Assembly (NCBI RefSeq): GCF_021018895.1 | Contig: NC_079373.1 | Location: forward strand, 26,281,876 to 26,345,875 | Reading direction: 5' to 3' | Length of the DNA: 64,000 nt | Source of the DNA: Seriola aureovittata | Lineage: Eukaryota; Chordata; Actinopteri; Carangiformes; Carangidae | In this document: positions 4,159-24,854 of the stretch, in pieces | Layout: each line of letters begins with the position of its first letter | How positions within the stretch are numbered: position 1 is the stretch's first letter | Position numbers and translations under genes: made by a program | The notes under the pieces: generated by a model | Database searches by the model: none | The model's input: only the letters and a program-made list of their open reading frames with translations | Told to the model about the DNA's origin: nothing

Positions 4159-4250
4159 TTTGATACTTTCACAGTATTAATATAGAAGCTAGAGCTGATC
4201 TATAATCACACTACACATGGACACAGACCTTTACACTGGAGGAGCTTTAA
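4159..4250 (-). mobile_element. MITE family A, copy 2 (end fragment)
   Basis: Only the left end of the element remains, in reverse orientation, ending GGAGCTTTAA. It stops about 80 nt upstream of the ETS/IRF motif and 160 nt upstream of the TATA box of 4HB-1, so it borders that promoter. Confidence 0.7.
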
Positions 4251-4331: not shown

Positions 4332-4341
4332 GGAAGTGAAA
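4332..4341 (+). promoter_or_regulatory. ETS/IRF composite element (EICE-like) upstream of 4HB-1
   Basis: GGAAGTGAAA matches the ETS-IRF composite consensus GGAAnnGAAA exactly and contains the IRF core AAnnGAAA. It sits about 80 nt upstream of the TATA box. Binding is inferred from the motif only. Confidence 0.4.
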
Positions 4342-4412
4342 ACGGATGGACGCGCTGTGACGGTGACGGTGCGTTAAAGATGCCACAGATGGGAGGGAAA
4401 CAGGTGGAGGTG

Positions 4413-4419
4413 TATAAAA
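4413..4419 (+). promoter_or_regulatory. TATA box of 4HB-1
   Basis: TATAAAA at 4413-4419 lies about 75 nt before a good splice donor (exon end 4489, GTAAAC). Transcription should start near 4440, giving a non-coding first exon of about 50 nt. The intron would run 4490-5383, and coding starts 6 nt into exon 2. Confidence 0.55.
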
Positions 4420-4440
4420 GCAGCACAGCAGCAGATTCTC

Positions 4441-4489
4441 CTTCTTCAGCTGCATCCGACAGGACACCAACATCCTCCTCCTCCTTCAG
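4441..4489 (+). other. Putative non-coding exon 1 of 4HB-1
   Basis: The segment between the expected start site (about 25-30 nt after the TATA box) and a donor reading CAG|GTAAAC. The 5' boundary is an estimate. The other three MLKL-family genes can be given a similar untranslated first exon. Confidence 0.45.
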
Positions 4490-5389
4490 GTAAACCTGAT
4501 CATGTGATGTATTATCATGGGTTTGTAGTAGAATTAAGACTCTCTCTAAAGAAGAGCAGGAATAAATTTAGAAGCGTTTTATGTTGTTCTTGCCAAATAT
4601 ATTGCTAGAATATTCTTGATTATATTTTTGAGGGTTAAATTATTTAAACTTTTAAGGTTTTTTTCAGTTTGATGAAACTTTATAGTTTGTTTTTATTTAG
4701 TTTCATGTGTCCGTGTGTCCTTGCTGTGTGCCAACTGTCACCGAGCTGCTGTCCGTCTGAATGTGTCGTTTCCTTTAACAATAGTCTTTATTGTTCAAGG
4801 TTTAAAAACTCGAGGGTGAAGGTTTGGGAAACACATCATCGTCTTCCTTTATTTAAAAAGCTCATTTTATACTTCAATGTCATCAGTGTGTTAATGCATT
4901 GATGCATAATTTTAATTCTTAATTTTAGTTTTCACTAATAAAGTCCTCACACAAAAATATAGTTTCTTTTACTCAAAAAAAAAACAGTGCAGTGAAGTTT
5001 GAATAAGTTTTGTGAGGAGAATAAAACACTTTACAGTAAAGACGGACGGTAGAAAGAAAGAACGTCTTTGGGAAACCACACCTCACCTCACTCGGCCGTG
5101 TTCTGTGGAATGTAAATGGCGCCGTCTGATAGTCAGTGTTGGGAAGTGTTGAGGAAACCCCGCCCACTTCTGTACCGCTAGGAAAGTGCTTTAAATGGCT
5201 GTTTGATATAACGGCTGAACGTGGTTTCATTATCAGCTCTGGCCTGTAGCACGTGATACATGTATATAACAACACAGTGAGACGCGTGGCTTAAAACATA
5301 TTCTGATTCATGCTGTTCCAACTCTTCACTGCAGATGTTCAACAGCCCCTTTAAGTCAACTTCCTCTCTGTTTTCCTTCTCAGCTCGTC

Positions 5390-5860
5390 ATGGAAGACAT
5401 TGGAAGCATCTTGGGCTTATGCCGGGGCATCTTCTGGATGGCGTCTGAGGCGAAGGTCAATAAGAGTCGCTGTCTCCGCCTCGCAGAGAGGGTCAAAGCC
5501 CTGGAAGATCTGGTTCAGCTATTCAAACAAAGAGGGCCGAGCCAGATCCCCCAAAACGTGAACAGTGCGCTCTGGAAACTCCACATGACTCTGACCGCGG
5601 CCCACCAGCTGGTCAAGAAATGCGTCACGCACAAATTTGTGAACCCGTTGAAGTGCATGAGTGAGTTCAACAGTGCGAATGAAGGTCTGATAGACACCTA
5701 CCACGTCCTGTCTGGGGCTCTGCAGATCGATGGTCGATTCAACCATCCCCATCTTTTTGGGCCCCAGCAGCGGCCCCCAGGCCCCAGCCCTTTCGCTGCC
5801 ATGATGGAGGTGGGAAACGACACCATGTATTACTCGGAGGCTTTCTTCCTCGCTCAGTGA
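5390..5860 (+). CDS. 4HB-1: MLKL executioner-domain-only protein, short proline-containing tail
   Basis: Intact 156-aa coding exon. Residues 1-115 align by eye along their whole length with the N-terminal four-helix bundle of the MLKL encoded at 20755-24854. Shared positions include the helix-1/2 pattern VNKSRC (MLKL: ANKKSC), the RV..LE.LV core, QRG before the next helix, and the final LSGALQ. The MLKL bundle is the membrane-inserting domain of necroptosis. No brace helix or pseudokinase follows. The tail of about 40 aa is rich in Pro, Phe and Met and ends FFLAQ. The start is fixed by a 3' splice site 6 nt upstream (CAG|CTCGTCATGG), the same geometry as in MLKL. MLKL splices out after its equivalent of this exon, but this gene reads through to a stop. 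I found no kinase exons before TMED6 copy b. It could be a decaying truncated copy, but the frame is open and a promoter can be proposed. Confidence 0.8.
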   Translation: MEDIGSILGLCRGIFWMASEAKVNKSRCLRLAERVKALEDLVQLFKQRGPSQIPQNVNSALWKLHMTLTAAHQLVKKCVTHKFVNPLKCMSEFNSANEGLIDTYHVLSGALQIDGRFNHPHLFGPQQRPPGPSPFAAMMEVGNDTMYYSEAFFLAQ

Positions 5861-6386
5861 TTTGAGCAGGTTCCGTGTGTTGGACCTTCGTCGTCTCGTC
5901 GTATTCCTCCTCCAAAGCTAATTTGATCCACTTACATTTGGAAAACGCGCTCACCAACTTTCTTGCAGAGAAGATTGATGAACTTCGGTGTCGTACCGCT
6001 GATCGAAGACGTGCGTGCGGTGAAGAACCTTCATCACGTAACTTTTATTCTTTTCTTTCGCGGGTGACGTAAACAGCTTGATTCTCTAAAGGAGAAATGA
6101 CCATAACGAGGTTTTCAAGCGAATATAGAGACCGACATGGCGACACAGTGTCATGATGAAGCTGGATGAAAAAAGTGAGGGTCTTGTGCCCACAGATCAC
6201 ACCTGGGCAACATCTGTATCCACCTGTATTAGAAAAACATCCAGCCGATCTCCACCTGATTTACGTGACTCTGTTTCAGTCTTTTGTGGCTTTAAACCTT
6301 GATGTTTCTGTTGCTAATGGTGATGAACCCGAATGTAATTTCACACGTAATCTTATACTTACACTTATTTCATAAGAAATTCTATC

Positions 6387-6392
6387 AATAAA
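6387..6392 (+). terminator. Poly(A) signal, 4HB-1
   Basis: AATAAA about 530 nt after the 4HB-1 stop, with no nearer canonical hexamer noticed. Confidence 0.4.
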
Positions 6393-6769
6393 TTGGGTTT
6401 ATACTGTAAAACAACATGTTTTTTGTCACCTGCTGACCTGAAATCCCCCTTAAATCTCCTTAACAGCTGTAACTGGAGTCTGCTGAATAAGCAGATAATA
6501 AATGATAATATAGTAAAACAGCTGAAACATTATCATATAATTCTTCGTAGGAGAAGTTGTAATTGCTTGTTTATATTCTGCTTATAAATGCTGTTTTTCA
6601 TTCTCCAAAAGAAACAATTTAGAAAGGTGATATATATACATAGATTGTGTAAACAATGGAGATGTCAAACAATATTTTCTTAATAAATCTGTCTGTGTCT
6701 CAGCACTTCCTGTCCTCCCTCCTCTGTCGCTCAGCTCATTGGTTCCTACTGAAGATGTTAATCTTTAAA

Positions 6770-7130
6770 AACAGCTCACAAATATAAATGCGCCGCCGAC
6801 AGTCAGAGCGGCGGCCATTTTGCTTCCAGGTTGTCCGTCTGTCCGTCACGTTCTCGTGGATACGATATCTCAGTAACGCCTTGAAGGAAACCTCTTCAAA
6901 TTACGCACAAACGTTCACTTGTACTCAGGGATGAACTGATCAGATTTTGGTGTTCAAAGGTCAAAGGTCGAGGTCAGTGTGACCTCACAAAATACCTTCA
7001 GCCGTTACTTAAGACTTCACACAATTTCACACACGTGGTTCATATTTGATATTTTTCTGGATAAACAGGGATGTGACCTGGAACTAGTCCCAGCGGCGGA
7101 GGGATACGACCTCGAGACGGGAATTCCAGT
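6770..7130. repeat. Interspersed repeat family F with nuclear-receptor half-sites
   Basis: Contains GGATGAACTGAT...TTTGGTG followed by clustered AGGTCA half-sites. A degraded second copy is at 54365-54560 in a GLG1 intron. It lies 150-510 nt upstream of the TMED6b start codon, in the expected promoter region. Confidence 0.5.
6971..6985. promoter_or_regulatory. Perfect ERE-like palindrome AGGTCAGTGTGACCT
   Basis: Matches the oestrogen-response consensus AGGTCAnnnTGACCT with no mismatch. A direct repeat AGGTCAAAGGTC (6958-6969) lies just upstream. It sits in family F, 295 nt before the TMED6b ATG. Function is inferred. Confidence 0.35.
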
Positions 7131-7279
7131 ATCCAAATACAAAGCATGATTTTGGTCCCATTACACTGATATGTTATCAAATGTCACGGAGAGTCGGTCG
7201 TGGTGGTTAATGATTCTCCGGCTGATACCTGAGAGCGAGCGGGAGGAAGCGGCAGCTCCTCGGCTCCGGGACTGGACTC

Positions 7280-9536
<2,257 letters not shown>

Positions 9537-9654
9537 GAGCAGAACCTGCACACGTCTGGACCTCTTCATAATTTACTATTTTCTCTAATTCGATATTTAT
9601 TGAAAAAAAATTTGGAAAAGAAAAAAGATCTTGCACATTATCTGCAATATTTTA

Positions 9655-10162
9655 TTAAAGGTCCTCCAGTGTAAAGGTCTGTGTCCATGTGTAGTGTGAT
9701 TATAGATCAGCTCTAGCTTCTATATTAATACTGTGAAAGTATCAAAGCCTCAGTCCACAGAGAAATGCACACAGCCTGTATTCAGAAACTGAGCCTTAAA
9801 ACCAGCCGTCAGGACTTCTGGAACTTTGTGATGTCACAACGAAGCAGTCACCAAGCCCCGCCCACCTGGACCCACCATCCAAACCTTGCAGGATTTGGTT
9901 TCTCTCAGTGTTTTTACCTGAAATCTGCTATATTTTTATTGGATGACTCAGAAAACAGTCAGCCAATCAGAAGAGAGGCTCAGAGCCTCCTCTCTTCTGA
10001 TTGGCTCACCGACCTGTTGTTACTAGAGCTCCAGAGAGAAGCCTGAGAGAGGAGATGTAAAACTACACTGAGGTGGTTTTTGGTTCTTAAAACCACAAAT
10101 ATATCTTATGGATCAAAACTTTAAAATAAAACACAGAAGAAGAAGAAAATATGGAGTTTTAA
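9655..10162 (+). mobile_element. MITE family A, copy 3 (full length)
   Basis: About 508 bp from TTAAAGGTCC to GGAGTTTTAA. It begins within an ATTAAA that is the first polyadenylation-like hexamer after TMED6b, so the element may supply that gene's 3' end. The internal hairpin lies at 9961-10006. Confidence 0.8.
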
Positions 10163-10860
10163 ATCCTGTGGTCAACTTAGTGGCAGCAACATGTCAAGAA
10201 ACAGAGCAATGTGCCAACAAAGGCAGTGAAGAAGAAGACTGCAAATAGATGTAAACCGAATTCAGACAAATTCTTTATGAGTAAGAAATTTGTTAGACCT
10301 CATAATGGAGAGGACACTCAACACTGGATATAAACAGAGCCATAGGGCAGGCCACCTTCAACACTGCATACTGTGAAGTATATTAATTAGCTAACAATCC
10401 ATCTTTATGGTACCGTTAAGTTACCAGACCTGAACTCATTTTAATAAGTTTGCAAAACTTGATTTAATGATAAAAGATGAGCTGGTTTAATTAAAGCAAC
10501 GATGAGATTTTGCAGCTCAAAGGAACTGCTTGTCCAGCGTTAGCATTAGCAGCTGTTTACTTTCTACTAGTTTTAGCCAAGAGGTTATAATTCGCCCTCT
10601 GAGCAGCGCCAGAGTCAACAGTGGAAAAAGCTGTTGGCGAGTAAAGGAATGAGGTTTGATGCTGAACTTACAACGTTTCTATTGGACTGGTGATGAACAG
10701 CTGTCAGTGCCAGTGTTGGCTATGCAGCCATAACAGAACAAAAAGCTCCTTTAAGGAAAGAGAGCGCGAGGACTGGATCGGACACCTCCTTCCTCTGGCA
10801 TCTGACTGTCACACCTTTTAACACAGGAACGTCCAGGTCCAGAGCTTCTGCTGCTGCAAA

Positions 10861-11205
10861 ACAACTACAAAGAGACAAAACAACAACAAAACAGAAACAC
10901 AAAACAACCACAAGAAGACAAAACAACTACAAAGAGACAAAACAACTACAAAGAGACAAAACAACAACAAAAAAGAGACACAAAACAACTTCAAAGAGAC
11001 ACAAAACTACAACAAAGAGACACAAAACAACGACAGAGACACAAAACAACAACAAAGAGACAAAACAACAACAAAACAGAAACACAAAACAACCACAAAG
11101 AAACACAAAACAACGACAAAGAGACAAAACAACCACAAGAATACAAAACAACTACAAAGAAATACAAAACTACAACAAAGAGACACAAAACTACAGCAAA
11201 GAGAC
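10861..11205. repeat. Degenerate tandem repeat (ACAAAGAGACAAA-like)
   Basis: Purine-rich repeat of about 18-20 bp made of ACAACnACAAAGAGACAAA variants, several hundred bases upstream of the proposed 4HB-2 promoter. The Val/Leu/Cys-rich antisense frames over it are artefacts. Confidence 0.8.
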
Positions 11206-11634
11206 ACAACGTGACCACAAAGACTCATTTCGAGTCTCGTTCAGTCTGTGTAGGGTCGGGGTCTTTACATAATCCGTCCATGGGTGTTTGTTTTGTGGAG
11301 TGTAGACCTGGTTCTCAGTCCACAGCAGCAGCAGCACTTGATGGAGCCTGGAAGTCTTTTACATCCAGACTGACTGTGACCTCTCCCTCCATCACAGTCC
11401 AGGCACATCTGACCCACTTCGGCCTGTATCCTGAGTGGATGACCTTTTGTGTCACGTGACTCTGTGGTTTCCTCACGTTACCTGGCACCTGTGGGTTCTC
11501 CAGCTCTAATACAGGCCCTCAACATGAAAATCAGGTTCAACATGTGAATGAGTATCTGTTGTTGTGTCTGTGCCAAAGCATCATACATGCCACGGGTGTT
11601 TCACATAAAAGCACCTGGCATGAGCAGGGAAGTG

Positions 11635-11726
11635 ACGTTGGTGCTGAAAGACTGATTTACTTTCATTTTCTTCACTTTCCACACTCGCTGCTCCTGGATT
11701 CACAGACCGTCAACATCCGCTGACAG
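11635..11726 (+). other. Putative non-coding exon 1 of 4HB-2
   Basis: A TATA-like CATAAAAG (11604-11611) is followed by a stretch ending in donor CAG|GTAAAT at 11726/11727. Its end resembles that of the putative MLKL first exon (CAGACCG... up to CAG|GTAAAT at 18928). The 5' limit is estimated. The intron would run to 12978, with the acceptor 6 nt before the 4HB-2 start codon. Confidence 0.4.
11661..11670 (-). promoter_or_regulatory. ISRE-like element of 4HB-2
   Basis: On the minus strand the site reads GAAAATGAAA, an exact fit to the ISRE core GAAAnnGAAA. On the plus strand ACTTTCATTTTC differs by one base from AGTTTCnnTTTC. It lies 56 nt before the donor of the putative first exon (11726). 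Interferon response is inferred from the motif. Confidence 0.45.
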
Positions 11727-12984
11727 GTAAATCTTTTTTAAAATCATCTCCAACCAAACTCCTTTATAACTCTGATATGAAATATTACAATCTCCTGTGA
11801 AAACTAACAAAAAAGCTGCTGAGTTTTCAGCTTTGTGGCAACACATTTTTCAGGTGATCAAAAATGTATTTTGCTTAAGAAGAGGAAGATTTTCTGAAAT
11901 CATAAATGAACAGTTAAAGGGCAGATTCAAAGTTTGTCAAGTCTGTCTTGACACAACAGTCCAGTGCCCACGTCAACAGTGAAACTTGTTTTTCTTGCTC
12001 TGATCATTAAAGAATTTCATGCAATTTTCAGTGTAATACACGAGAGACAAAAGCCTCAGTCGTCAGTCTGTGGATAAATAAATTCCAAAGGTGACCTGAA
12101 GCCAACAGGAAGTTTCAGCGGGCTGAAATCAACAGGGTGTCGTTAAAGTTTCCGTCTTTTTCGTACCAAATTGTGACGGACAGTGTTTACCCGTTGAGAC
12201 AAAGTGAAACATCCTTTCATTCCTTAGCTTGTCTGAAAATTTAAAAACACATGGGTTTCAGTGGACAGCTGTGATTCATGTTATAGACTCTGCAATCTTG
12301 AACAGAAGTTTCAGCCAGCGGTTCCAGGCCGATGTTGGTAGAAGTCAGCACAAGTTGTATGATGTGAGTATGATGTGCTCTGATTAGTATAAACGTATTT
12401 AGGAGAAGACAGAAATGTAAAAGTGAAACAGTTTATAAATGGTTAATGAAACTGCAGTGGAATAAATGACCTTTGCTGACTCTCTATCAGAAACATGCGG
12501 AACGTTTTCATGAGTGTGGGTTTGGTTTACTGTCAGATTTCACAGAAGCCCCGCCCACTAACCTTCACACAGGTGTTTTATTTGGATGCTGTTTGTCTTG
12601 GCGTGGCGTGAACACAGAGACAGACTCAACTGCTGCACAGATTCATACAGTTCCAGCCTTGATTGTGAAAACTGACTGTTTCAGAGCTGAGATTCAGCAG
12701 CAGGAGAGAAGTGGTAAAAGTCTAGAGTACGACCAAAACCCGACTGAAGTTCTGCTCAGACATACTTTATTTGAGCAGATACCGATCCATTTAAATTTGC
12801 CTGAATGGGTCCTAATTGGCTCCGGACGTCTGTGTTTAGACTCAGATCTTCCTGTAAATATAAGAGAAATGTTTGCGGCCTTTCTTGGCTTCCGTACCCT
12901 TCAGTTCAGACTCGGCTTTGAAGTTCAGCTCAGTTCATTACGTTTCAGTCGTCGCTAACGGTTTCTCCGTCTCCACAGCTCATC

Positions 12985-13899
12985 ATGGAGAACGTGGAAC
13001 TGATCTTGTCTCTTTGCTACACAATCTACCAGAGGGTTGAGAACATAAAGTCCAACAAGGAGCGCTGCCAGCGAGTCGCCCAGAGGGTCCAAGACCTGGA
13101 GGCACTGGTCCTGACCATCAAACAAAGGGGGCCGGGCCAAATCTCGGCCCCTGTGCACCAGGCTCTGAAGGACCTCATCGTCACTCTGAATAGTGCCAAA
13201 GAGATAATGATGACATTCTCCCAAACTACGGGTTTTAAGAGCTTCCTGAAGTCCAGCAACCACGAGGAGAAGTTCTGCAGGATGAACGACAGACTCAACG
13301 ATAACTTCCAGGTCCTGTTCGGAGCGCTGCAGGTCGAGCAGGGCAACATCCTGCAGAAAGTCTACGAATGTGTGGCGAGACCGGAGGAAGAGCGACCTCT
13401 TACCAGCCCCATAGCCCCGATGCCTCCCCCCACGCCTACAGCCCCGATGCCTCCCCCCACGCCTACAGCCCCGATGTATCCCCCCACGCCTACAGCCCCG
13501 ATGTATCCCCCCACGCCTACAGCCCCGTTGCCACTTACCATGCCTATGTCTAACCCCATGCCTCCCATGCGTCACCCGACACCAGTGTATCGCCCTGCAG
13601 CTCCCACACCTGTGCAGTACATGGTGCCCCCCCCCAGGCCAGTGTTCGTCCGTGCAGCTGCCATGCCTGTGCGCTCCATCATGTCGCCCGTGCAAATGTA
13701 CAACCCCGTGACCATGACTAGAGCCGTGACCCAGCTCCCTCTCTCCACCGCCGTTGTCTCCCAGCATGTCACCACTACAATGTACTCCGTCCCTACCTCC
13801 CCCACCACGGTCCCCATGCAACTCATCACCCCTGTTCGCCCCGTGACTGTTTCACAACAAAATGCATCTGTAGGTTTTATCAATTCGTTTTTACGTTAA
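12985..13899 (+). CDS. 4HB-2: MLKL executioner-domain protein with long proline-rich tail
   Basis: Intact 304-aa single coding exon. Residues 1-130 form an MLKL-type four-helix bundle, the closest of the three to the MLKL at 20755: SNKERC, RV..LE.LV, KQRGPGQ, SFLKSS, LFGALQVEQGN. After that there is no brace or kinase. Instead a 170-residue tail is rich in Pro, Thr, Met and Val. It opens with four 9-residue repeats (consensus TAPMxPPTP, residues about 143-179) encoded by four near-identical 27-nt units. The start is set by acceptor CACAG|CTCATCATGG 6 nt upstream. An ISRE-like site lies near the proposed first exon. Function is not known. The bundle suggests lipid binding or permeabilisation. 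The tail may be disordered or bind SH3/WW-type partners (inference). The antisense frame is also open but is a Gly/His-rich shadow. Confidence 0.82.
   Translation: MENVELILSLCYTIYQRVENIKSNKERCQRVAQRVQDLEALVLTIKQRGPGQISAPVHQALKDLIVTLNSAKEIMMTFSQTTGFKSFLKSSNHEEKFCRMNDRLNDNFQVLFGALQVEQGNILQKVYECVARPEEERPLTSPIAPMPPPTPTAPMPPPTPTAPMYPPTPTAPMYPPTPTAPLPLTMPMSNPMPPMRHPTPVYRPAAPTPVQYMVPPPRPVFVRAAAMPVRSIMSPVQMYNPVTMTRAVTQLPLSTAVVSQHVTTTMYSVPTSPTTVPMQLITPVRPVTVSQQNASVGFINSFLR
13414..13521 (+). repeat. Four 27-nt tandem repeats inside 4HB-2
   Basis: Units start at 13414, 13441, 13468 and 13495, each encoding nine residues of the proline-rich tail. Units 1-2 carry a Pro codon (CCT) where units 3-4 carry Tyr (TAT). 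All are in frame, so copy-number change would keep the reading frame. Confidence 0.9.
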
Positions 13900-14109
13900 A
13901 ACAAGAGAAACCGGCTCTAAACTAAGTGTTTTAAAGTATTTCTGTGACGTGTGAGGACAGAGACGGAAGGAAGGTGGGACCGGGACTTTTTCTAGTGTTG
14001 CAACCGTCCTTTTGTTTCTCAGGAGACACGCCCGTTAACCCGTTAACTAGTGATGACATCATGTTTTCATTAATGAACTAACCAGTATGTGAAGAAGGAA
14101 TGAATTAAA

Positions 14110-14583
14110 TTAAAGCTCCATATGTTCTTCTTCTTCTGTGTTTTATTTTGAAGTGTTGATCCATCAGAAGATATAAAAACCATCTCAGTGTAGTTTTACA
14201 TCTCCTCTCTCAGGCTTCTCTCTGGAGCTCTAGTAACAACAGGTCGGTGAGCCAATCAGAAGAGAGGAGGCTCTGAGCCTCTCTTCTGATTGGCTGACTG
14301 TTTTCTGAGTCATCCAATAAAAATATAGCAGATTTCAGGTAAAAACACTGAGAGAAACCAAATCCTGCAAGGTTTGGATGGTGGGTCCAGGTGGGCGGGG
14401 CTTGGTGACTGCTTCGTTGTGACATCACAAAGTTCCAGAAGTCCTGACGGCTGGTTTTAAGGCTCAGTTTCTGAATACAGGCTGTGTGCATTTCTCTGTG
14501 GACTGAGGCTTTGATACTTTCACAGTATTAATATAGAAGCTAGAGCTGATCTATAATCACACTACACATGGACACAGACCTTC
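14110..14583 (-). mobile_element. MITE family A, copy 4
   Basis: Reverse orientation, between the convergent genes 4HB-2 and 4HB-3. Starts TTAAAGCTCC. It supplies an AATAAA (14316-14321) on the plus strand that could end 4HB-2 transcripts. Confidence 0.8.
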
Positions 14584-14767
14584 AGACTATATAGATCTTT
14601 AAAATTAAGATTCAAATCATCATATTTTAAAGTGGCAATTTTACATATCAGACCAAATTTTACTGGATAATCCAAAGTTATGAAATCACGTTTATTAATA
14701 TATTTATTGCTGCTGATTATTATGAATAATTTTGTTGACAGAATTATTAATTAAACCAACATCAATA

Positions 14768-14781
14768 TTTATTAATTTATT
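14768..14781 (-). terminator. Poly(A) signals, 4HB-3
   Basis: Two minus-strand AATAAA hexamers (14768-14773 and 14776-14781) lie about 220 nt past the 4HB-3 stop codon. Confidence 0.35.
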
Positions 14782-14995
14782 ATGAACAGTAAAGCAGATT
14801 ACAGTGTTTATGAAGCAGTCATACCTCGTTATCAAGAGCCAGAAAAGTAAAATATGCTGAGACGTACACATGAAACATAACAAGTGATGATTTTAGGATA
14901 TTAATATAAAAGTATTATTTGGATGTTTACACACATATTATGAGTAAACAATGAGGCATGTCTGGACTGGTGTTAAACATTTACTAAGCTCGTCT

Positions 14996-15517
14996 TCACT
15001 GCAGAACACAGTAGTAAGCTCTACTTTCATAGGCGATTTTTGACTCCACTATTTGCAGTATGTCTTCCTGCTCGGCCATTTTGTTCTCCTGCTCAGCCAT
15101 CCTCCTCTCCTGCCTCGCCAGCTGTAACTCCTGCTCGTCCAGCTTCTTCTCCTGCTCGTCCATCCTCTGCTCCTGCTGGATGTGCAGAGCCACGGACAGA
15201 GTCACAAAGGTGTCGGTCAGACTTTTGTTCAGGTTCTCGAACTCTAGTTTGTAGTCGCCTGATTTCATGGCGTGATGCAGCTTGTGTGCATCCATGAATT
15301 TTTTGATCAGCTCAGTGGCCGATAACACGGCCTTGTCGAGTTTCTCCAGAGCATCCTTCATGTCGTCAGAGAGTCGCTCCGGCACTTTAAGTTGGATGAA
15401 AACCAGCAGTTTCTCCAGGGCTCTCAGTCTCTGCAGGATGTGGGGACACTGCTGATCGTTGTTCTTCATCCTGTCAAACAGGTTGTAGACGACCGTGAAG
15501 GATTTGAAGACCTCCAT
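14996..15517 (-). CDS. 4HB-3: MLKL executioner-domain protein with coiled-coil tail
   Basis: Minus-strand single coding exon of 173 aa. An upstream in-frame start at 15592 is possible, but a 3' splice site (CACCAG|CTGACAATGG) lies 6 nt before the start chosen here, exactly as in the sister genes. Residues 1-115 form an MLKL-like four-helix bundle: RLRALEKLL, a QLKVPERLSDD turn matching the QRG...SDD turn of MLKL, then TFVTLSVALHIQQEQ. Residues about 117-152 are five heptads of pattern xMxEQEx, a charged coiled coil encoded by degenerate 21-nt repeats. This tail sits where MLKL has its brace, the region that drives oligomerisation, so it may act as a substitute (inference). It is the most diverged paralogue and the only one in reverse orientation. 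No pseudokinase exons follow. Confidence 0.78.
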   Translation of the reverse strand: MEVFKSFTVVYNLFDRMKNNDQQCPHILQRLRALEKLLVFIQLKVPERLSDDMKDALEKLDKAVLSATELIKKFMDAHKLHHAMKSGDYKLEFENLNKSLTDTFVTLSVALHIQQEQRMDEQEKKLDEQELQLARQERRMAEQENKMAEQEDILQIVESKIAYESRAYYCVLQ

Positions 15518-15781
15518 TGTCAGCTGGTGAGACAGGAAGTCGGTTAGCTTAGAACGAAAAATGTACCGATATTGATCAGGCGTGAATGGCAACTACGATT
15601 CTCGCTGAGGCGAGTTACATTGATTGTTCTGGTGAATATGATCGGAGCATCATGAGCTGAGTTTGAGGCTTTAAGAGAACCATACCGAGCTGTAAGAGCT
15701 ACAACAGGAAAGACAAAACTAATATTCTGCTTCTTTGAAATCTTTTCTAATATAATGTTGTTTTCAATTAATAAATATACA

Positions 15782-16580
15782 CTTAAGAAAACACATTCAA
15801 CACACATGCTGCAAATACTCACAACACGACCGGAAGTGTATGTTAATACTTGTTGTTCAATGCTATTAACTTCAAAAAGTCACAAAGCATTGAACAAGTG
15901 CGTCCCAGCCTGGTGCATCACTCTTTAGTGTCCCCTGGAAACTGTAGTGTATTATCCACTTCATTTCTCTTTTATCTTAATAGTCTAAATGGTTGTATGT
16001 TCTTCCTTTATGTATCTCTTATTCTAAAGTTCAAGAAGGGTGCCAACTAAGATGTTGTTGAAGGTTTCCTTGAACCATCCATTATAAGTTGAGGTTAAGG
16101 AATGTGCATTAAGGGGCAAAACTGTTCACACATCAGTTTTCTGTTAACCATGATACGGGTGACTCAGGATGTGGGGGTCTTTGCTGGCCCAAAAGGTTAA
16201 AGGTCAAAGACCAGAGGCCTGAGACCAGATGTGGTCAACCTCTGGGTAAAGGCTCCTCTATTGAAAGAAGGGCAATTCCCAAAGGAGGGTTGAGACGGAT
16301 AAATAGAGGGGTTTGTGAGACAGTAGGAGAGAGATCTCACATCGGCAGAGATGCTCCAGGATTCGGCATTTTTTGACACTGTTTCTTTCTTGTAAATAAA
16401 CTTCTTTTTGATTGCAAGTAAAGACGTGTCAGCGGTGATCACTTCTTCACATCAGCACCTCGAGATACCACAAAACACTTCCTTTGTGTTGTCAGTATTT
16501 GCAGCACGTGTGTTGTCAAATCCATGAAGATATTTTCTAAATTCGTTTGTATTTTGTCTATTTGTGTGTGTTTTCTTAAG
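15782..16580. mobile_element. Foldback MITE family B, copy 2 (split by solo LTR)
   Basis: Inverted ends CTTAAGAAAACACA (15782) and its complement ending at 16580. Without the 534-bp LTR insertion and target duplication it is about 265 bp. It lies in the proposed intron of 4HB-3. Confidence 0.6.
15943..16472 (+). mobile_element. Solo LTR (endogenous retrovirus or LTR retrotransposon)
   Basis: 530 bp bounded by TGTAGT...ACCACA (TG...CA) and flanked by a perfect 4-bp duplication AAAC (15939-15942 and 16473-16476). Internally it shows a TATA-like ATAAATAG (16299-16306) and AATAAA (16395-16400) about 95 nt apart, the usual U3-R-U5 layout in plus orientation. It has no internal coding region, so it is a recombined solo LTR. 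It splits a family B foldback element: joining the flanks restores the TGGAAACACTTCC sequence seen at 1024-1036. A 4-bp duplication fits gamma/epsilon-type retroviruses and some Gypsy elements; the class is not determined. Confidence 0.75.
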
Positions 16581-16760
16581 TTGCGGTGCGTAGAAGACTT
16601 AAGAGCGACAACATAAAGGGAATAATAAAAACTACAAATATGTCCCGATTAACACACAACAGCTAGCCACCATGCTGAAGATAAAACCTTTCGCTTTATG
16701 AGGCGATGTGAACTTCATTCTGGTGCAACTTTCCAGACAGACTGAAAGGTTTGTTTTCAG

Positions 16761-16946
16761 TGCACCAGTCCAGATGCTGGTTTTTCCCAGTTTGCCCAGT
16801 GGTCGAAGACAACATGTCCGGTACTCACTGGTCCAGAGTACGAGCTACTAGAACTTGACCCTGACAAGTTTAGAAACAGTGTCTTTAAGACATACTTTGA
16901 CACAGTTTGTCCAGAGCAGAAAAATGTCACTGTAGAAATGGATTAA
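16761..16946 (+). pseudogene. Unidentified coding-like segment (last exon or gene relic)
   Basis: A reading frame starting at a good 3' splice site (TTGTTTTCAG|TGC) runs 61 codons to TAA at 16944-16946. Its composition looks protein-like, not repeat-like: CTSPDAGFSQFAQW near the start, then LTGPEYELLELDPDKF, and an ending with charged residues (VTVEMD). There is no in-frame start codon, and an in-frame stop lies 17 nt before the proposed acceptor. It could be the terminal exon of an unrecognised plus-strand gene, or a relic of a duplicated or retroposed gene. I do not recognise the family. It lies within the proposed intron of 4HB-3 on the opposite strand. Confidence 0.35.
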
Positions 16947-17059
16947 GCAGATTTCCCTGGCTGCCATAGACGACAGGTAGAAGCTGCTATTGGTCGTAAC
17001 ATTGAGCCTCGTTCTAATTAAAAGGTTAAATAATATATCAAGAGTAAATGGTAACTTAC

Positions 17060-17100
17060 CGTAAAGTGGATACCATGCAAGCTGTCAGAAGTAATCCAGG
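17060..17100 (-). other. Putative non-coding exon 1 of 4HB-3
   Basis: On the minus strand a TATAAAT (17133-17127) overlapping an IRF core AAATGAAA (17130-17123) is followed about 70 nt later by TCCACTTTACG|GTAAGT. The exon end closely resembles the MLKL first-exon end TCCACTTACAG|GTAAAT. The intron would run 17059-15524 and contain the solo LTR. This is a model from motif similarity only. Confidence 0.35.
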
Positions 17101-17303
17101 TATATGTGGGAGAAAGCTAAACTTTCATTTATATCCTCTAATGTAGGTCAGCTGATAGGTTATCATCCCTCTCTGCTGTGGCGTCATTCGTGTTCTCTGG
17201 TCAGACACATTACAGATCTATACCCAAGATAATTAGACTCCTTACGTCCACACCCATCGGACACGAACAGGGTCAGCCTCATTTAGGCTCCAGAGACCAT
17301 CAC

Positions 17304-17688
17304 AGGTCTCTGCAGGTCTCTGTCTGCAAGTCTCTGTCTGCAGGTCTCTGCAGGTCTCTGTCTGCAGGTCTCTGTCTGCAGGTCTCTGTCTGCAGGTCTC
17401 TGTCTGCAGGTCTCTGCAGGTCTCTGTCTGCAGCTCTCTGTCTGCAGGTCTCTGTCTGCAGGTCTCTGTCTGCAGGTCTCTGCAGGTCTCTGTCTGCAGG
17501 TCTCTGTCTGCAGGTCTCTGTCTGCAGGTCTCAGCAGGTCTCTGTCTGCAGGTCTCAGCAGGTCTCTGTCTGCAGGTCTCTGTCTGCAGGTCTCTGCAGG
17601 TCTCTGTCTGCAGGTCTCTGTCTGCAGGTCTCTGTCTGCAGGTCTCTGTCTGCAGGTCTCTGTCTGCAGGTCTCTGCAGGTCTCTGTA
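17304..17688. repeat. Minisatellite of CAGGTCTCTGTCTG units
   Basis: About 27 head-to-tail units mixing a 14-bp unit (CAGGTCTCTGTCTG) with a 10-bp unit (CAGGTCTCTG). It lies between the 4HB-3 promoter model and the MLKL promoter model. No spacers, so not a CRISPR array. Confidence 0.9.
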
Positions 17689-18839
17689 GACCTACAGGAA
17701 CTCTGAAGGTTGACCTGTGGTTACACAACTACAGTTAGATAATCTAACTGTTAGTGATCATTGGAACAAAATACAGTTGTTTATATCTTTACTGGTTTAT
17801 TGTAACCTTCATTAAATTACACTTCAATAAAGTCACATCGTTCACTGAGGTCAGGCGTGTGTCTTCCCAGCTCAGACCAAGCAGATTTTGTTCGCAGCTG
17901 TCTTGTCGCCCTGCTGGAAAAAAAAAACAAAAAAACAAAAATGAAACTTAAAGGTGAAAGTAAATTGTTGCTAGACTAAAATATTTTATGGATTATTTGG
18001 ACTGGACAGTGATATTAATATTGAATCACTGAATCTCTGCTGCAGCCTGTAATCTAAAGCGTTCCCTGTTTGGCTTCACATCTTGTTACCAAAGTTACTT
18101 CTTTCCAGTCAGTTGTCTACAGCAGGGAAGTTTGGGCCCTGTGATTATGCTGTGTCACACAGAATGATCTCTGTGTTTGATAATCTGCTGTACAAATACA
18201 TTTGCCCTCTGTTGGAAAAATGATGATACTTTATGACTAGATAAACATTGTTATCGTCAAATGAATCCTGAACATGAAACCATATGAGAAATATCAGAGA
18301 GGAACAAAGTTCCTCCAAGATACTATGCCCACAGGTTTCTTATGATAAACATGTATCTATGTCTGCCGGGTGCATAAATCCCCCCCCCCCCATATGCTCT
18401 GTACATAAATCCTGTGTGAACCTTGTATTCTTTGAACATTTGCACTGCAAGCTCTTTGTGTGTAACTTGTTCCCTCGCTGCAAGAATAAATATCCTACTC
18501 TTGTGAATTTCAGACAGCGCTCCTGAGTTTGTTTGACAATTTTCCTATCACCCTCACTGCTGCACCCTTGACCCCGGGTGTTTCACATGAAACCAGCGAG
18601 CCTGACAGATCATTAATAAAAGAGTGAGTCAGGACGCCTCTAGAGCCCCCACCCCACCCCACCCCGGTCATCGTGCAGTAAGTTACAACACTTCTGTGGA
18701 AAGGAAAAGTAAAATAAATCCTGGGTGTGTCAGCACTGAGGAGCGAAAACAAATCTCTGAGGGGGGAAGGACTGTTAGTTCCTAGCAGCAACAGGAAGTC
18801 TGAGCAGCAGAGGGAGGAGCTGAAGGCTACACAGCTACA
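17689..18839. other. Intergenic, upstream of MLKL
   Basis: No gene is seen. It contains a C-run (18381-18390) and CCCCACCCC repeats (18650-18665). Purine-rich GGAAAGGAAAAGTAAA (about 18699-18714) is reminiscent of IRF/ETS sites but does not fit the ISRE spacing. Confidence 0.4.
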
Positions 18840-18928
18840 GCTACACCGCCTTTTCTCTTCCTCGCTCAGCTCTCACACAGAATACACGTCCGTCCAGACC
18901 GGCAGCTGTTACTGACTTCCACTTACAG
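18840..18928 (+). other. Putative non-coding exon 1 of MLKL
   Basis: A transcript-like segment ending TCCACTTACAG|GTAAAT, resembling the first-exon ends proposed for 4HB-2 and 4HB-3. I found no convincing TATA box or perfect ISRE upstream. The 5' limit is arbitrary. Intron 1 would be 18929-20748. Confidence 0.35.
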
Positions 18929-20754
18929 GTAAATTATGGTTTTGTTTATGATTAACTCTGCTGATAGCTCTTCACGTGTCCTCTGGTTGGGAGCACAGCG
19001 AGTCATTTCTCTACAGCTGATATACAGTTATACTGTATAGTTCCTCACAGTTTTCCCAGAGAGGAACTTTCCTTTCCTGGTGAAAGCGACACAGAGGAAA
19101 ATAGTTTCCAAAATGAATATCACTGCTGAGGAGAAGCTCCTTCAGCATCTGGGTTTCGGGGGGTTAATCCGCTCACATGACCAAAGTACAGTCCTTTTGA
19201 ACACATTTGTACACGCTCTGAGAAGCTCAGGATCTGCAGACAAACAAGAACTCAATTCACACTTTACGTAGTGTAGCTTTAAATGGAAATGTGTAAGAGT
19301 TATAGATCGGGGTTTTTACAGAACACCACTTTGTATTCCAAGCACGTTTTCACTGAGCAGCTTGTTTCCCTTCAGAACACAGTGATTCACTTGTCGCTCT
19401 GTAACAACTTTAAAGCCAAAGGATTTGTAATAAAAACAAGCAGTGGAAGAAGTTCTCCTTTTTAAAAATACTAATCCATTCATTCATATGAAAATGATGA
19501 GTAAAAGTCCTGCATTCAAAATCCTACTCAGGTTAAAGTGCAGGAGTATTATCAGAAAAATGTACTCAGCGTGAAAGTAAAAGTACTGGTTATGCAGGGA
19601 AATGATGCATGTGAAAAATACTTTTTTTTTTTTTTTTACAGTGGAGCTGGTTTAGTCAAGTTGTTTCTGACCGAGATGATGGGATGATGGAAGAGGGAAG
19701 AAGAAAAACTTCCTCTTATCTTTTAAAAAATACTGAATAGGAAGAAAGTGTCTCTGGCCCCGCCCGTCTCTAGACAAGGGGCCCAACCAGATTCTTTTTG
19801 GAAGAGGAAAGACCGATTTAATCTTTAACATTGTGTTGTATTTTATAAGAGATCAGTTTCATATATCATCTAGTCTGTGCACAACTTACTCTGAAAAGTA
19901 GTTAGTAACTATAGTTTTAAAGGTCCCGTATAATCTAAAGGTAGATGTCCATGTCCAAGAATTCAGCTCTTGAGAAGCTTTTCATCTTCAGGCTTTAAGA
20001 GGCGAGGCGAGTTACAAAACCAGACATGTCCACAGACCTGACGGACCTGACAGGGTGGTCACCAGGAAGCACCAACACTAAACCTCTCAATTCCTCCTTG
20101 CTGTAAATCAGTAAAACTGTTGCGTCAGAAAACTTTCAATAACTGCTGAACAGTGAATTTTCTTTCTTAGGTTTTGTTCTTTAGGAAACAGAGAGACCTG
20201 TCTCCCTGTGACACTCCCAGCCTCGGGGTGATGGACTGTGAGTTCTGCTCTCAACATGAATCTGTTTCAATCGCCGATTTTATGCTTTAACTCTGAAACC
20301 AACCTCCCTTTTCTTTAAATATATTCATCCTGTCCGGTGTGGGCGTTAACGTGGTTTAACTTTGTGGAACGAAGTGTTAATTTGTCTCTCCATGATTTCT
20401 GATTTCCCTCCTCTGTTGGTGACTCTCAGCTCCAAGCCTGGTTCCTGCCGAATATGTAAATGATCACAAATATATGGTTTTCTTTTTCTTTTTTAAATGC
20501 CCCGTAATTTACTAAAACAGGTACTCAAACTGGGAGAAATAGTGCTATTTGTCTGGGACTATTTTCAGTGCTGGATTAATCCACATTTGGTGCTTTAGTT
20601 TAGTAACCACAGCCAGTCTCAGCTTCCTTAGGTGAGTCAGACTTGCGCAGTATAATCCAGGTTATTTCAGCTCAGATAACTGTCCTTCGATCAGCTCTGA
20701 CTTATTTCATTTCACTGCTATAAGTTCATTTCTTCTCTGTCTTTCCAGCTGATC

Positions 20755-23700
20755 ATGGACTACGTGGAGCCCATCCTGACCATTGTCTCAGAGATCTACA
20801 CGCTGATCCAGAATGTGAAGGCCAATAAGAAGAGCTGCCGTCGTGTTTTTGGCCGAGTCCAATCCCTGGAGCAGCTGGTGAAGTCCATCCAACAGAGAGG
20901 GACAGTCCAAGTCTCTGATGACGTAGAAAAAGCCCTCAAGGAACTCAACGGCGTTCTGAAATCAGCACAAACAATCATAGATAAGTACGCCTCCTCTAAC
21001 TGGGTGAAGCTCATCCTGAAATCCAGCAGCCACAAAGAGGAGTTCATCATTGTCAATGAGCGCCTCAATGAGACCTTCCAGCTGCTGTCTGGAGCTCTGC
21101 AATTGGAGCAAGGGAATGCGCTGTACATGGTTTATGTAGAGGTCTCCAAAAAGAAGGACGATGAGGATGCCGGGACAGAGGACGACGCGGAGCTGAAGGA
21201 CTGTGAGCGAAACCGATTTTGACTGGTTTTGAGTTGCACACATAGAGCGGAAGAAATATAACTAGGAGTCAGAGTGTGTTTGCCTTTGTGTCATCAGTTG
21301 TGTTTGTCTGTTCCTCAGTGCTCCTGGAGAACATGAGGGAACAGCAAGAGAAACTGGACGCCATCAAAAGCGACGTGGAGAAGCTCATAGAGATAAGTGA
21401 GTGCACCAAAACACAATCTCTGCATCAGTATTGTTAATACAACAAGTACTAGAAGCTGCAGCAGTTGTAGCTGGCATACTAATAGGACAATAACTAATCG
21501 TAATGACATTTAATCCACTGGTATTTTTTAGATAAATGTATTTATACAGGTTTTGAAAACGCCCTTAGTTAACTCTGAGTTGAGGGAAACTCATAAAAAT
21601 AATATAAAACTGATCAAATTATTGCACAATGACAAAGTTTGTCCGTAGATAATCCAGGAGTTGCCTTGTGTATTTTCACAGTGAATACGCCCCGCAAGGC
21701 TGAAGACAACCAAATGATCAGACAAAGCGATCTGCAGTACGAGAGAAAGCCCTTCATGAAGACAGCAACCTCAGAGGTCTACAAGGGAAAGTATCATGGA
21801 TTCGAAGTGGCCATCAAGAGATACACGGAACCTGTGAACAAAAGCCCAAGGTCTGTGCGACACTGCAGGACGATACCGAAGCAAAATACAGGAAAACTTG
21901 TGTCGTACCTGTATAACGTTTAGATTTTTTATCTGATTTTTGAAGCTTTAGGCTTAAACTGACCCGTCGCGTGTCTCTGTTTTCAGGGAGATACGTGCTT
22001 TTTTCGAGAGGGAGGTTAAAACCATGAAACAGTTTCAGTCGCCCAACATCCTGCGAATGTATGGCATCTCTGTCCGGGACGAAGACGGTGAGTAGTAGTG
22101 AGGATGTGAATCAGCCACGTAGCACAGTTACAATAATAAATAATGCAATGTGTCCCTGTGATTGCCTGTAGGACCCAACCCTCAGTTCCTCGTTGTCACG
22201 GAGTACTGTGAGCTGGGAAGTCTCCGACAGGTTCTGGACTCTAGCGTTGAACTGTCCTGGGCCAAGAAAGCTCAAATGTGTCTGGACGCAGCACTAGGAC
22301 TCTACCAGTCAGTCTATACTAATTAATATGTCAAATTTAAATGTGCAAAGAATGACTCTTTAACACTTTCACAGTATTAATATAGAACCTAGACCTGTAT
22401 ATATTATATGGAGCTTTAAGATAGATCAGTATAAACTGTACCTTCATCGTTTTTGCCACTAGATGGCAGAGTTACTATGATATCCAGAACTACAGATGAA
22501 GCCGATAATTTATTCACTAATGAGTATCTCTGTTTTGTCTCAGACTGCATCACACTGGAGAAAAAAGTAGGATTCATGGATGCATCACCAGCAGCAAGTT
22601 CCTGGTGGCTGAGAACTACAGGGTCAAGGTACTGAAGTCAGTGCATGCTGGGATTGCCCCCAGCCAATTGAATGGTGGTATTCAGGGGGTTGAGGACAAT
22701 GTATTAAGTCTCATACGGTGTTATTTTTGTTTTTTGTATTTGACAGCTGGGAGGTTTTGAGCTGGCCAAAACAGAGACGTCATTGAAAAGGTCGAAAACT
22801 GTCGAGAGCAGGTCCTCGTGCTACGAATCTCCTCAGAAGCTCAACGACATCAACTACGAGTACAGCGACAAGTGTGAGATATACAGGTCAGATACCAGAC
22901 AGGGATCAATCTATACAGCTGCACAACACCTACAGTATATCATTTTTAAAATGATGTGAATTATATAGTATAAATGAAACACTAAATATAACAAAATATA
23001 ACAGTGGTTCTCAAAGCACCAGTCTTAGGGATGAGATTTGTTTCTATTTTTTAATTGTACATTTTATTGACATTTTACCACATGAAAAAGCGAAGCAACG
23101 TTTACTTTACCTTCATTTCTGTCAAATATCTAAACTGTAAAAATAAGCAGGAAACATGAGAATCACCACATTTAAAATGTTGCTGTTGCCATTTTTCTGC
23201 AATTAAGGCCATGACAGCCAACAGTTGCCGGATGTTGAAGAAAGTTATATTAATAAATGCTCATTGTTTTTGTTCACTTTGTAAAAACTCATCAGGTTGG
23301 CAGTTCTGTGTGTTAATACATCATCAATAGAGGGACATAGCTTCCTTCCAAGGGTTATAAATGCTAAGAAGTCACATGCTAATAAGTTGCTGCTGCTAAA
23401 TCAGTTGTGGTCCTGATGTTCTGCAGCTGTTTTCCAGAAGGTATCTGGTTTCTGATGAATAAAGGAGCTAAAAAATCTATTCTTATTTATGGTTTATATA
23501 ATGTCTTAGTACGTGATTTATAAACCATGAATAAAGCCATTACTTGCAACTGCATGAACACTTTATAATGTTTGACTTATAAGTAAGTGCCACTAAATGT
23601 GTTAATACAGACAGCTGCTCAGAGTAGCCACTGCATGACAGTTGAATTCATAGAGATTCAATAATGAATTTTATAATTAAGCAATGAAACCAACCTCACC

Positions 23701-24854
23701 TACAAATGTTGTCTTTCAGCTTTGGTATCGTCCTGTGGGAAATTGTAACTCGTAAGATCCCTTTTCAATGTGAGTATCTGTCTGTGTCTCAGTATGTTGA
23801 GCTGCCTGGACATCTTCACCTTTCTCCTTCCTGTCCGCAGAAGCATCAGCATTACTCTCACGTGCTGACAGTAAACATATCAAACAAGCAGTATGGAGGA
23901 AAAAATATCTAAAAATCAATCTATTCAAAAATATTTACCATGAACTGACAAGGACACTGTCCGGTCACAAGGCAGAGGATCTATTAAGGAAAGAAGCCTG
24001 AATGCTAAAGAGGATCTTTGCTTCAGTGCACACCTGAGGTAGTGTGTAGCCAAGGCAGCAAGCTAGTGTGCACTGTGCAGGTCGGGAAAGCGTTGCTTAG
24101 CAACAGTTCAGTGCCAGTCCAGTTGTTGTTGGCGTAGCCAAAACAAACAAATCATAATCTGTAGCTTATTACTGTTAAACATGGCGCTCGTAGAACTGTT
24201 GTATAAAAGCTAAATCACACTGGAGGATGTGTTGTACTGAATATCAGCGCGGCTGTGTGATAATGCTAAAGTCATTTGCTCGTTTACTTGCTAATTTTCC
24301 CTCTTGACGCTTAATACGGAAGTTTAGTTTCCGCATTCGTCTACGCATGCGTGTAATGTGTGCGATATCATAACTGATCTCAGAACAGTAGAAGCTGAGT
24401 CAAGGACAGTTTAACGCGTTAACGTGGCTATAGCTAATCGCCCATTAAAAGTCCCAGGATTATCCTGCAGAATAAAAAAATGACTATAGAACATTTCACT
24501 TAAATGTTGATGATGTGTCTTTGTCTCTTTTCTCCAGTTTGTTCAATTGAACAAATCGAACAGAAAGTGTGTAAAGAAAGATCTTGCGAACCGTTTCCTG
24601 ACGACTGCGTTGACTGTCCTGAAGCGCTGCGCAGGCTGATCGATGACTGCCGGGAGTACGACGGCTTCCACAGACCAACAGCTGGAGGTGAACCAGTCAC
24701 CCCATTTTAAAAACTGTTTACTTTGTAAGAAATCATCTAAAATAATAATAATAATAATAATAATAATAGCCAACTAACATCATGGTAATCTTTCTCTTCT
24801 ACAGTGCTGGTGGACGAGCTGCAGGTCCTGGTGGCACAGTTAAAGAAGCAATAA
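20755..24854 (+). CDS. mlkl: MLKL, mixed lineage kinase domain-like pseudokinase
   Basis: Ten in-phase coding exons: 20755-21202, 21319-21396, 21682-21850, 21987-22087, 22172-22307, 22544-22628, 22747-22886, 23720-23769, 24538-24687 and 24805-24854; 468 aa, close to the human length. MLKL is the terminal effector of necroptosis: RIPK3 phosphorylates its pseudokinase, the protein oligomerises and its N-terminal bundle permeabilises the plasma membrane. Seen here: four-helix bundle (about 1-125), acidic linker and brace helices (about 130-180), pseudokinase (about 195-460). The VAIK lysine (K221) is kept. The catalytic HRD is replaced by Ile-His-Gly (321-323) and the DFG by GFE (342-344), both hallmarks of MLKL. 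A Thr-Ser pair (350-351) lies at the position of the human RIPK3 target sites. The start is set by an acceptor 6 nt upstream. The neighbour RFWD3 supports orthology. Confidence 0.95.
22364..22413. mobile_element. MITE family A, copy 5 (deleted fragment)
   Basis: In MLKL intron 22308-22543. About 25 bp of internal sequence (ACTTTCACAGTATTAATATAG) is joined nearly directly to the end ATATGGAGCTTTAA. Confidence 0.55.

Follow-up and report, generated by a model that had tools for sequence, protein, structure and literature searches.

Kinase-free MLKL four-helix-bundle genes beside MLKL in percomorph fishes, with a conserved candidate prenylation motif in one family

In the flounder Paralichthys olivaceus, the four-helix bundle (4HB) of MLKL alone has been reported to kill HEK293T cells and to inhibit the growth of E. 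coli, as does the 4HB joined to the brace (PMC10825024). For human MLKL, residues 1-125 are reported to kill, the N-154 and N-166 fragments, which include brace helix H6, are described as silent, and isoform 2, which is without much of the pseudokinase, is described as killing better than the full-length protein (PMC4725247). According to its section 4.1, the main survey of MLKL was restricted to proteins whose N- and C-terminal domains are both intact (PMC11476962); thus, genes that encode the bundle without the kinase would have been filtered out. Here, we describe three such genes, g1, g2 and g3, located beside full-length MLKL in a 64-kb stretch of the Seriola aureovittata genome (64,000 nucleotides of contig NC_079373.1, assembly GCF_021018895.1; hereafter, the window). 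Judged by their sequences, g2 and g3 represent conserved families of percomorph fishes that are mis-named in databases, and the g3 family ends in a conserved motif predicted to carry a lipid anchor.

The original prediction for this stretch was that three intact genes encode stand-alone MLKL bundles next to a full-length MLKL, and the Pfam scan bore this out. The open reading frames (ORFs) of g1, g2 and g3 are intact, and each occupies one coding exon (Table 1). PF22215 (MLKL_N), with a curated cut-off of 27 bits, scored 75.4 bits in g1, 116 in g2, 75.2 in g3 and 135.7 in the MLKL exon, and no kinase Pfam family matched the g1, g2 or g3 proteins. A brace and a pseudokinase on the same protein were found only in the gene at 20755, and no pseudokinase remnant was detected outside MLKL in the 64-kb window, the remaining matches having E ≥ 0.67. 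The g1, g2, g3 and MLKL proteins recover one another by tblastn, with E values from 5e-33 to 6e-11. A scan of the 647-Mb genome, in which 8 candidates were scored and counts are lower bounds, identified at least four copies of MLKL_N at E ≤ 0.001, all of them in the window (g1, g2, g3 and MLKL). The bundle of the window MLKL is identical to that of P0060, the S. aureovittata MLKL record. Downstream of MLKL lies RFWD3 (WD40_RFWD3 match); since RFWD3 has been named as a conserved MLKL neighbour (PMC11476962), the window corresponds to the orthologous MLKL locus.

A match to MLKL structures had also been anticipated, and PDB sequence searches with g1-g3 retrieved MLKL chains, the sole other rows having E values of 1.2 and 4.1. 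At the level of the fold, neither model had a Foldseek row at E ≤ 0.001, the quality of the models being limited by their four-row alignments. The suggested analogy with HeLo and RPW8 domains received limited support from an NRG1 CC-R chain near the top of the matches for both models and from the RPW8 (PF05659) label carried by 9 of 42 g3 rows; helical bundles match widely, and for g3 the VIA rows score level with chains of NRG1 and Cbl.

The C-terminal tails of g1-g3, which the original prediction missed, distinguish the three genes. In g3, a continuous helix spans residues 90-172. A search with g3, using a length filter of 0.55-1.75 times the query and thus excluding full-length MLKL, yielded 42 proteins, including that of the window itself; PF22215 is present in each of them and a kinase domain in none. 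The named sources of these proteins are Trachinotus, Paralichthys, Dicentrarchus, Pleuronectes, Lates, Epinephelus, Larimichthys, Pagrus, Perca, Nibea, Eleginops, Dissostichus, Trematomus and Xyrichtys, all of which we take to be percomorphs. Many of them are labelled golgin A6-like; the 7 Pfam rows that g3 has at E ≤ 1 include no golgin family, and the name probably reflects the coiled coil.

The g3 family shares an architecture consisting of the bundle, a coiled coil of variable length and a C-terminal CaaX box (a cysteine, two aliphatic residues and a variable residue X). In 29 dereplicated rows, the length of the tail after the bundle varies freely (46-151 residues), and the C-terminal motif is retained. 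Cysteine occupies position -4 in 41/42 g3 matches, in 0/17 g2 relatives and in 0/50 long control rows, which are mostly MLKL and include P0126 of the g2 clade (the motif counts given below use 49). In the g3 clade, which adds two members to the search matches, 42/44 rows finish in a genuine C-a-a-X whose position -2 is L, I or V, as do 29/31 after dereplication; the exceptions are P0042, which is without a tail, and P0089, which runs into an unrelated extension whose final CKAL was not counted as genuine. As a background, CaaX-type quartets precede 19 of 5064 stops in the six frames of the window. Within the g3 bundle itself, 24 columns are invariant across 23 rows, and each of them falls in the stretch of g3 residues 18-115.

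In four notothenioid rows (P0022, P0023, P0028 and P0035), the terminal Q is missing and the tyrosine preceding the old cysteine has become a cysteine, the old cysteine position being occupied by C, R or P (three rows were aligned and the fourth was compared by its printed sequence). With the direction inferred from the majority of rows, this shift may represent one ancestral event. The cysteine thus tracks the end of the protein rather than an alignment column, as prenylation demands, and we regard this as the strongest sign in our analysis of a conserved CaaX box.

Two further readings of g3 were tried and rejected. As a relic of the MLKL brace, the g3 tail shows 26% identity, and 1 of 60 shuffles equalled or exceeded the raw alignment score, which is too weak. 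The Ctf8 Pfam match on g3 (25.1 bits, cut-off 22) was judged a coiled-coil artefact, as PF22215 scores 75 and the 41 relatives have PF22215 but no Ctf8. Separately, Larimichthys crocea carries two g3 copies, P0013 and P0017, with the consecutive locus tags LYC05462 and LYC05463; therefore, g3 itself was probably duplicated in tandem.

The g3 bundle also differs from that of MLKL in its cationic cluster. In a simulation of human MLKL, K26, R30 and R34 were reported to hold acidic residues of the inhibitory brace helix H6, and MLKL was reported to use positive charge at lipids (PMC8433767). Among our 29 MLKL rows, which count the window bundle twice (W_MLKL and P0060), K25 is conserved in 28/29, K26 in 29/29 and R30 in 29/29. 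Two aligned PDB rows of MLKL, presumably mouse and human, are gap-free across this stretch. Most of the cluster is lost in g3, where (n=31) position 25 is D or N in 20 rows and K in 6, position 26 is Q, E or D in 30, and position 30 is H in 29. In g2 (n=20), K25 and R30 are kept in 20/20 rows, and position 26 is E or D in 19/20. Over residues 14-39, the net charge averages +5.1 in MLKL, +3.5 in g2 and +0.9 in g3, and over the whole bundle it averages +7.5 in g1 (2 rows), +3.9 in g2 (20 rows) and -1.0 in g3. The loss of the cluster in g3 is coherent because g3 is also without helix H6, which the cluster docks. As read from the sequences, the loss of the brace and of its dock, together with the gain of a predicted lipid-anchor motif, is a coherent change of design.

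For g2, 17 relatives were found among the 7992 candidates scored; each of them carries PF22215, and a kinase domain is absent from all. Their database names are unrelated to MLKL (e.g., YLP-motif and extensin-like), and by eye their tails are proline-rich. A P[TS]AP motif occurs in the tail of 14/21 rows of the g2 clade and in none of 49 MLKL or 44 g3 rows, the chance of one such unit in g2 being about 12%. Reported ESCRT (endosomal sorting complexes required for transport) control of MLKL damage (PMC9622947) prompted the idea that these motifs act as ESCRT late domains; we kept this as a weak lead only, given the rows without the motif and the fact that the window motifs ride on a minisatellite. 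A Q[NK]..V-like motif recurs at the C-terminus of 15/21 rows of the g2 clade vs 1/49 MLKL rows; therefore, the g2 tail also appears to be under some constraint. Within the g2 clade, we located P0126 of Poecilia reticulata (392 aa, named arginine-glutamic acid dipeptide repeats protein-like), which by its placement extends the g2 family to livebearers. An antisense ORF of 270 aa (12955-13767, minus strand) overlaps g2.

The helices of g1 were located at residues 4-20, 25-48, 55-79 and 86-113, followed by a short, disordered tail of 43 residues that stays open in 41% of shuffles. Its closest relative, P0148, is 58% identical over 114 residues, in an alignment that covers the bundle only.

The profile search produced 190 matches, including full-length MLKL, of which the best 120 were listed. 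The bundle tree was built from 106 of 155 sequences, after the removal of two with short domain coverage and of near-duplicates, over 119 columns and with a midpoint root. Based on the Shimodaira-Hasegawa-like approximate likelihood-ratio test (SH-aLRT), the g3 clade (32 rows) has a support of 100 (starred); the g2 clade (21 rows, 94), the grouping of g1 with g2 (92) and the main MLKL group (50 rows, 89) are unstarred, and many forks are unresolved. P0151, the MLKL of Diretmus, falls outside the main MLKL group. The tree indicates that g2 and g3 predate the split of the sampled species and are not fresh copies of one fish. In the same tree, the terminal branch of the window MLKL bundle (gene 20755-24854) measures 0.45 vs a median of 0.15; hence, the Seriola MLKL bundle evolves fast.

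A search of other teleost MLKL loci for bundle-only genes had been proposed as a check, and relatives of g2 and g3 were indeed found with MLKL in other percomorphs. Co-location was taken from equal longest-contig sizes in the listed rows, and the species named here are those among the matches listed. g3 and MLKL share a contig in Dicentrarchus labrax, Paralichthys olivaceus, Xyrichtys novacula and Eleginops maclovinus, the last of these with consecutive locus tags (PBY51_011358 and _011359). g2 and MLKL share one in D. labrax, Siniperca chuatsi, Enoplosus armatus, Chelmon rostratus, Chaetodon auriga and Scortum barcoo (P0071), while g2 and g3 share one in Trachinotus anak, Lates japonicus, D. 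labrax and one record of 68,978 bases. Thus, different families (g2, g3 and MLKL) are co-located in at least 11 named species and one further record. Frame-breaking mutations in related species had been proposed as a test, and intact relatives of g2 and g3 occur in many species; this is a partial test, since a protein database lists no broken copies.

The four genes are also alike at their 5' ends. A CAG acceptor-like site, following a pyrimidine-rich stretch, lies 6 bases before the ATG of g1, g2, g3 and MLKL. Putative non-coding first exons with CAG/GTAAAY donors, picked by eye and scored, were assigned to g1 (4489), g2 (11726) and MLKL (18928), and none was assigned to g3. Judged by these acceptor sites and first exons, the genes look like DNA-level copies of the 5' end of MLKL and not like retrocopies. 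Additionally, the sequence GRAANNGAAA occurs within 160 bp upstream of all three assigned donors, compared with 4.9% of the 160-bp windows in the 64 kb; as the motif and the distance were chosen after looking at the sequence, these shared sites are suggestive only.

Table 1. Coordinates of the kinase-less genes, MLKL and associated elements, numbered from the first letter of the window. IRF and ETS are transcription factor families; ISRE, interferon-stimulated response element.
Feature	Positions	Strand	Remarks
GRAANNGAAA (ETS/IRF-composite-like) site upstream of g1	4332..4341	+	motif match
g1 putative non-coding first exon	4443..4489	+	TATAAAA at 4413; donor CAG/GTAAAC; 5' end inferred; by eye
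g1, kinase-less MLKL_N gene	5390..5860	+	156 aa; bundle residues 1-113, 43-aa disordered tail
GAAANNGAAA (ISRE-like) site upstream of g2	11661..11670	-	motif match
g2, kinase-less MLKL_N gene	12985..13899	+	304 aa; bundle and Pro/Thr/Met-rich tail
27-nt in-frame minisatellite in g2	13413..13532	+	four PTAP motifs, residues 151, 160, 169 and 178
g3, kinase-less MLKL_N gene	14996..15517	-	173 aa; bundle 1-113, heptad coiled coil and CaaX
g3 C-terminal CVLQ, CaaX prenylation motif	14999..15010	-	conserved C at -4
g3 heptad-repeat coiled-coil tail	15011..15178	-	21-nt repeats at 15066-15177
GRAANNGAAA-type site upstream of MLKL first exon	18852..18861	-	motif match; second site at 18698
Full-length MLKL	20755..24854	+	ten coding exons, 468 aa; first-exon donor 18928; introns all GT-AG (exon model)

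The explanation that we favour is that these genes are prenyl-anchored, kinase-free executioner-domain paralogues that would act at membranes with MLKL; as a whole, we consider it about evenly poised between right and wrong. According to this explanation, g1-g3 would be old, retained duplicates of the MLKL promoter, first exon and 4HB exon that lost the brace and the pseudokinase, and each would have acquired a C-terminal address tag of its own that replaces control by the kinase. Most likely, proteins of the g3 family would be prenylated and held on the cytosolic face of a membrane as an oligomeric stalk displaying the bundle. There, regardless of RIPK3, g3 would bind or template the MLKL bundle and so tune where or how readily MLKL assembles. 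g2, with its 4HB and proline-rich tail, and g1 would likely be modulators or extra executioners under transcriptional control. We favour modulation for g3 because it has lost much of the positive charge that MLKL is reported to use at lipids; the protein would be at least as likely to serve as a membrane-tethered partner or scaffold as to form a pore. The boldest form of this explanation, to which we give a little less than an even chance, is that a percomorph family built of a lipid-anchored 4HB, a coiled-coil stalk and a CaaX box has replaced charge-driven, RIPK3-gated recruitment with prenylation, and that this platform beside MLKL licenses, nucleates or caps necroptotic assembly.

Several observations weigh against this explanation. 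The CaaX box fits a predicted prenylation of g3, but the motif alone is no proof, and many g3 rows are closely related, so that 41/42 does not amount to 42 independent cases. K25 is still present in 6/31 g3 rows, and the loss of K26 is not special to g3, since K26 is replaced in g2 as well. P[TS]AP is missing from 7/21 rows of the g2 clade, and g1 has one close relative, P0148, with which it groups at an SH-aLRT of 99 (starred). Finally, dN/dS had been proposed as a check and was run on the window paralogues; the codon model gave an overall omega (dN/dS) of 0.42, saturated and over 110 codons, and omega = 1 was rejected on the MLKL terminal branch only, not for g3 (0.80), g1 (0.57) or g2 (0.37).

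An alternative that we regard as rather unlikely is that the three genes are executioners controlled by expression, each bundle permeabilising membranes once it is induced by interferon or ETS/IRF factors and killing the cell or intracellular bacteria without RIPK3. The lethality reported for the flounder 4HB and 4HB-brace agrees with it, as do the absence of brace exons from g1 and g2 when set beside the silence of the human fragments carrying H6, the GRAANNGAAA sites near the first-exon donors of g1, g2 and MLKL, and the bundles of g1 and g2, which stay positive. On the other hand, g3 has lost most of its basic cluster and has a negative mean bundle charge, its first helix is four residues shorter, and a lethal gene would be costly under constitutive expression. 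The original prediction had offered pore-type effectors or tuners of MLKL; the stand-alone bundles stand, whereas the idea that all three are equivalent pore effectors is weakened by the state of the g3 cluster.

It is also conceivable, and in our view distinctly unlikely, that g3 has departed from cell death altogether and is a prenyl-anchored coiled-coil tether in membrane traffic, loosely golgin-like, in which the bundle is kept as a fold only. Such a role would suit the coiled coil, the CaaX box and the loss of the cationic surface. It does not account for the strong conservation of the bundle, for the co-location of g3 and MLKL in four species other than S. aureovittata (the locus tags being consecutive in Eleginops) or for the golgin-free Pfam rows of g3, and one would not usually expect a tether with a fixed reach to have a coiled coil whose length varies freely.

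The proposal that g1 and g2 supply MLKL with alternative 5' ends, spliced into MLKL exon 3 to yield isoforms that differ in their bundles, appears very improbable. Both genes lie upstream of MLKL, share its strand and have its exon layout, and g2 has a weak phase-1 GT at 13369 (score 0.5), the exon-2 donor of MLKL itself scoring only 1.6; however, g3 is on the opposite strand, the sole phase-1 GT of g1 past codon 110 scores -4.1, a TMED-like gene (by eye) lies between g1 and g2, the database proteins related to g2 and g3 each finish with a tail of their own and not with MLKL, and a match to AATAAA or ATTAAA follows each stop. In simulated neutral decay, which ignored indels, the ATG and open frame were kept in about 0.2-3% of cases at 0.3-0.5 substitutions per site. 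That the genes are decaying relics of an MLKL duplication with chance frames and tail motifs is hardly credible and largely refuted for g2 and g3: the omega of the g1, g2 and g3 branches is indistinguishable from 1 and the g1 tail opens readily in shuffles, but intact relatives with conserved tail ends exist in many species and all three bundles have a coding-type composition (GC of 0.72-0.77 at codon position 3 and 0.23-0.36 at position 2).

Other features of the region were also recorded. Beyond RFWD3 lies a gene with Cys_rich_FGFR repeats, which we take to be GLG1. Two p24/TMED-like copies flank g1, one at 1752-2258 (EMP24_GP25L match) and one, by eye, at about 7280-9536, for which the two pieces tested had no Pfam match; a TMED gene may therefore have been part of the duplicated unit. 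A 421-nt inverted repeat with 99% identity surrounds g2 (9668-10088 and 14168-14588), with more copies at 179-513 and 4158-4250, and a peptide that by eye resembles its translation recurs at 41631, 55176, 57408 and 60766; this repeat is probably a young dispersed element. Between g3 and MLKL, there is a minisatellite of about 28 copies of 14 nt (17303-17687). Elsewhere in the genome, the RHIM scan gave one match above the cut-off (L005, G000:C12:13335039-13335104), near a death-domain-like frame and, read by eye, probably RIPK1; RIPK3 was not identified by the RHIM model in this genome scan, which had two sub-threshold matches at E ≤ 5. A search for viral relatives gave 92 pattern matches in viral_contigs, of which none was confirmed.

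The genes are present in fishes that are farmed, among them yellowtail, sea bass, grouper and flounder. Given the filter of the main survey (PMC11476962), studies of necroptosis in fish may have overlooked parts of the pathway. How MLKL arrives at the membrane and permeabilises it is still debated, and g1-g3 are natural experiments in which the bundle stands without brace or kinase; in g3, moreover, most of the cationic cluster has given way to a conserved lipid-anchor motif. Such genes make it testable whether membrane attachment and oligomerisation are enough for killing and whether bundle-only partners gate MLKL. The original prediction knew of no multi-gene system of this kind next to MLKL, and we found none described in our searches of the openly licensed full text of PMC, which leaves most subscription papers and bioRxiv outside; the MLKL papers listed there dealt with the full-length protein, isoforms and artificial truncations.

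Compared with known systems, the closest is MLKL itself, with which g1-g3 have in common the homologous N-terminal 4HB, the region beside RFWD3 and the layout of the 5' exons; they differ from it in having no brace, pseudokinase or RIPK3-phosphorylated activation loop and in their new C-terminal tails. Human MLKL isoform 2, described as more lethal than the full-length protein, is likewise an MLKL product without much of the pseudokinase (PMC4725247). This isoform, however, is a splice form of one gene, whereas g1-g3 are separate genes with their own tails and a long separate evolution. Fungal HeLo-domain and plant RPW8/CC-R proteins are helical-bundle executioner domains, some of them stand-alone or clustered; they are not duplicates of MLKL and, to our knowledge, are not known to carry CaaX boxes. 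The CARD-only proteins beside mammalian caspase-1 are, like g1-g3, truncated single-domain duplicates adjoining their parent cell-death gene, but CARDs only recruit and have no lipid anchor, whereas the MLKL bundle itself can damage membranes. Prenylated proteins of the Ras type end in C-a-a-X as g3 does. The ends of the g3 family are mostly CVLQ or CILQ, some with X = L, and, unlike in Ras, the cargo consists of an MLKL bundle carried by a coiled-coil stalk whose length varies. The comparison suggests that what is new here is a kinase-free architecture of a known domain, joined in g3 to a conserved, predicted lipid-anchor motif.

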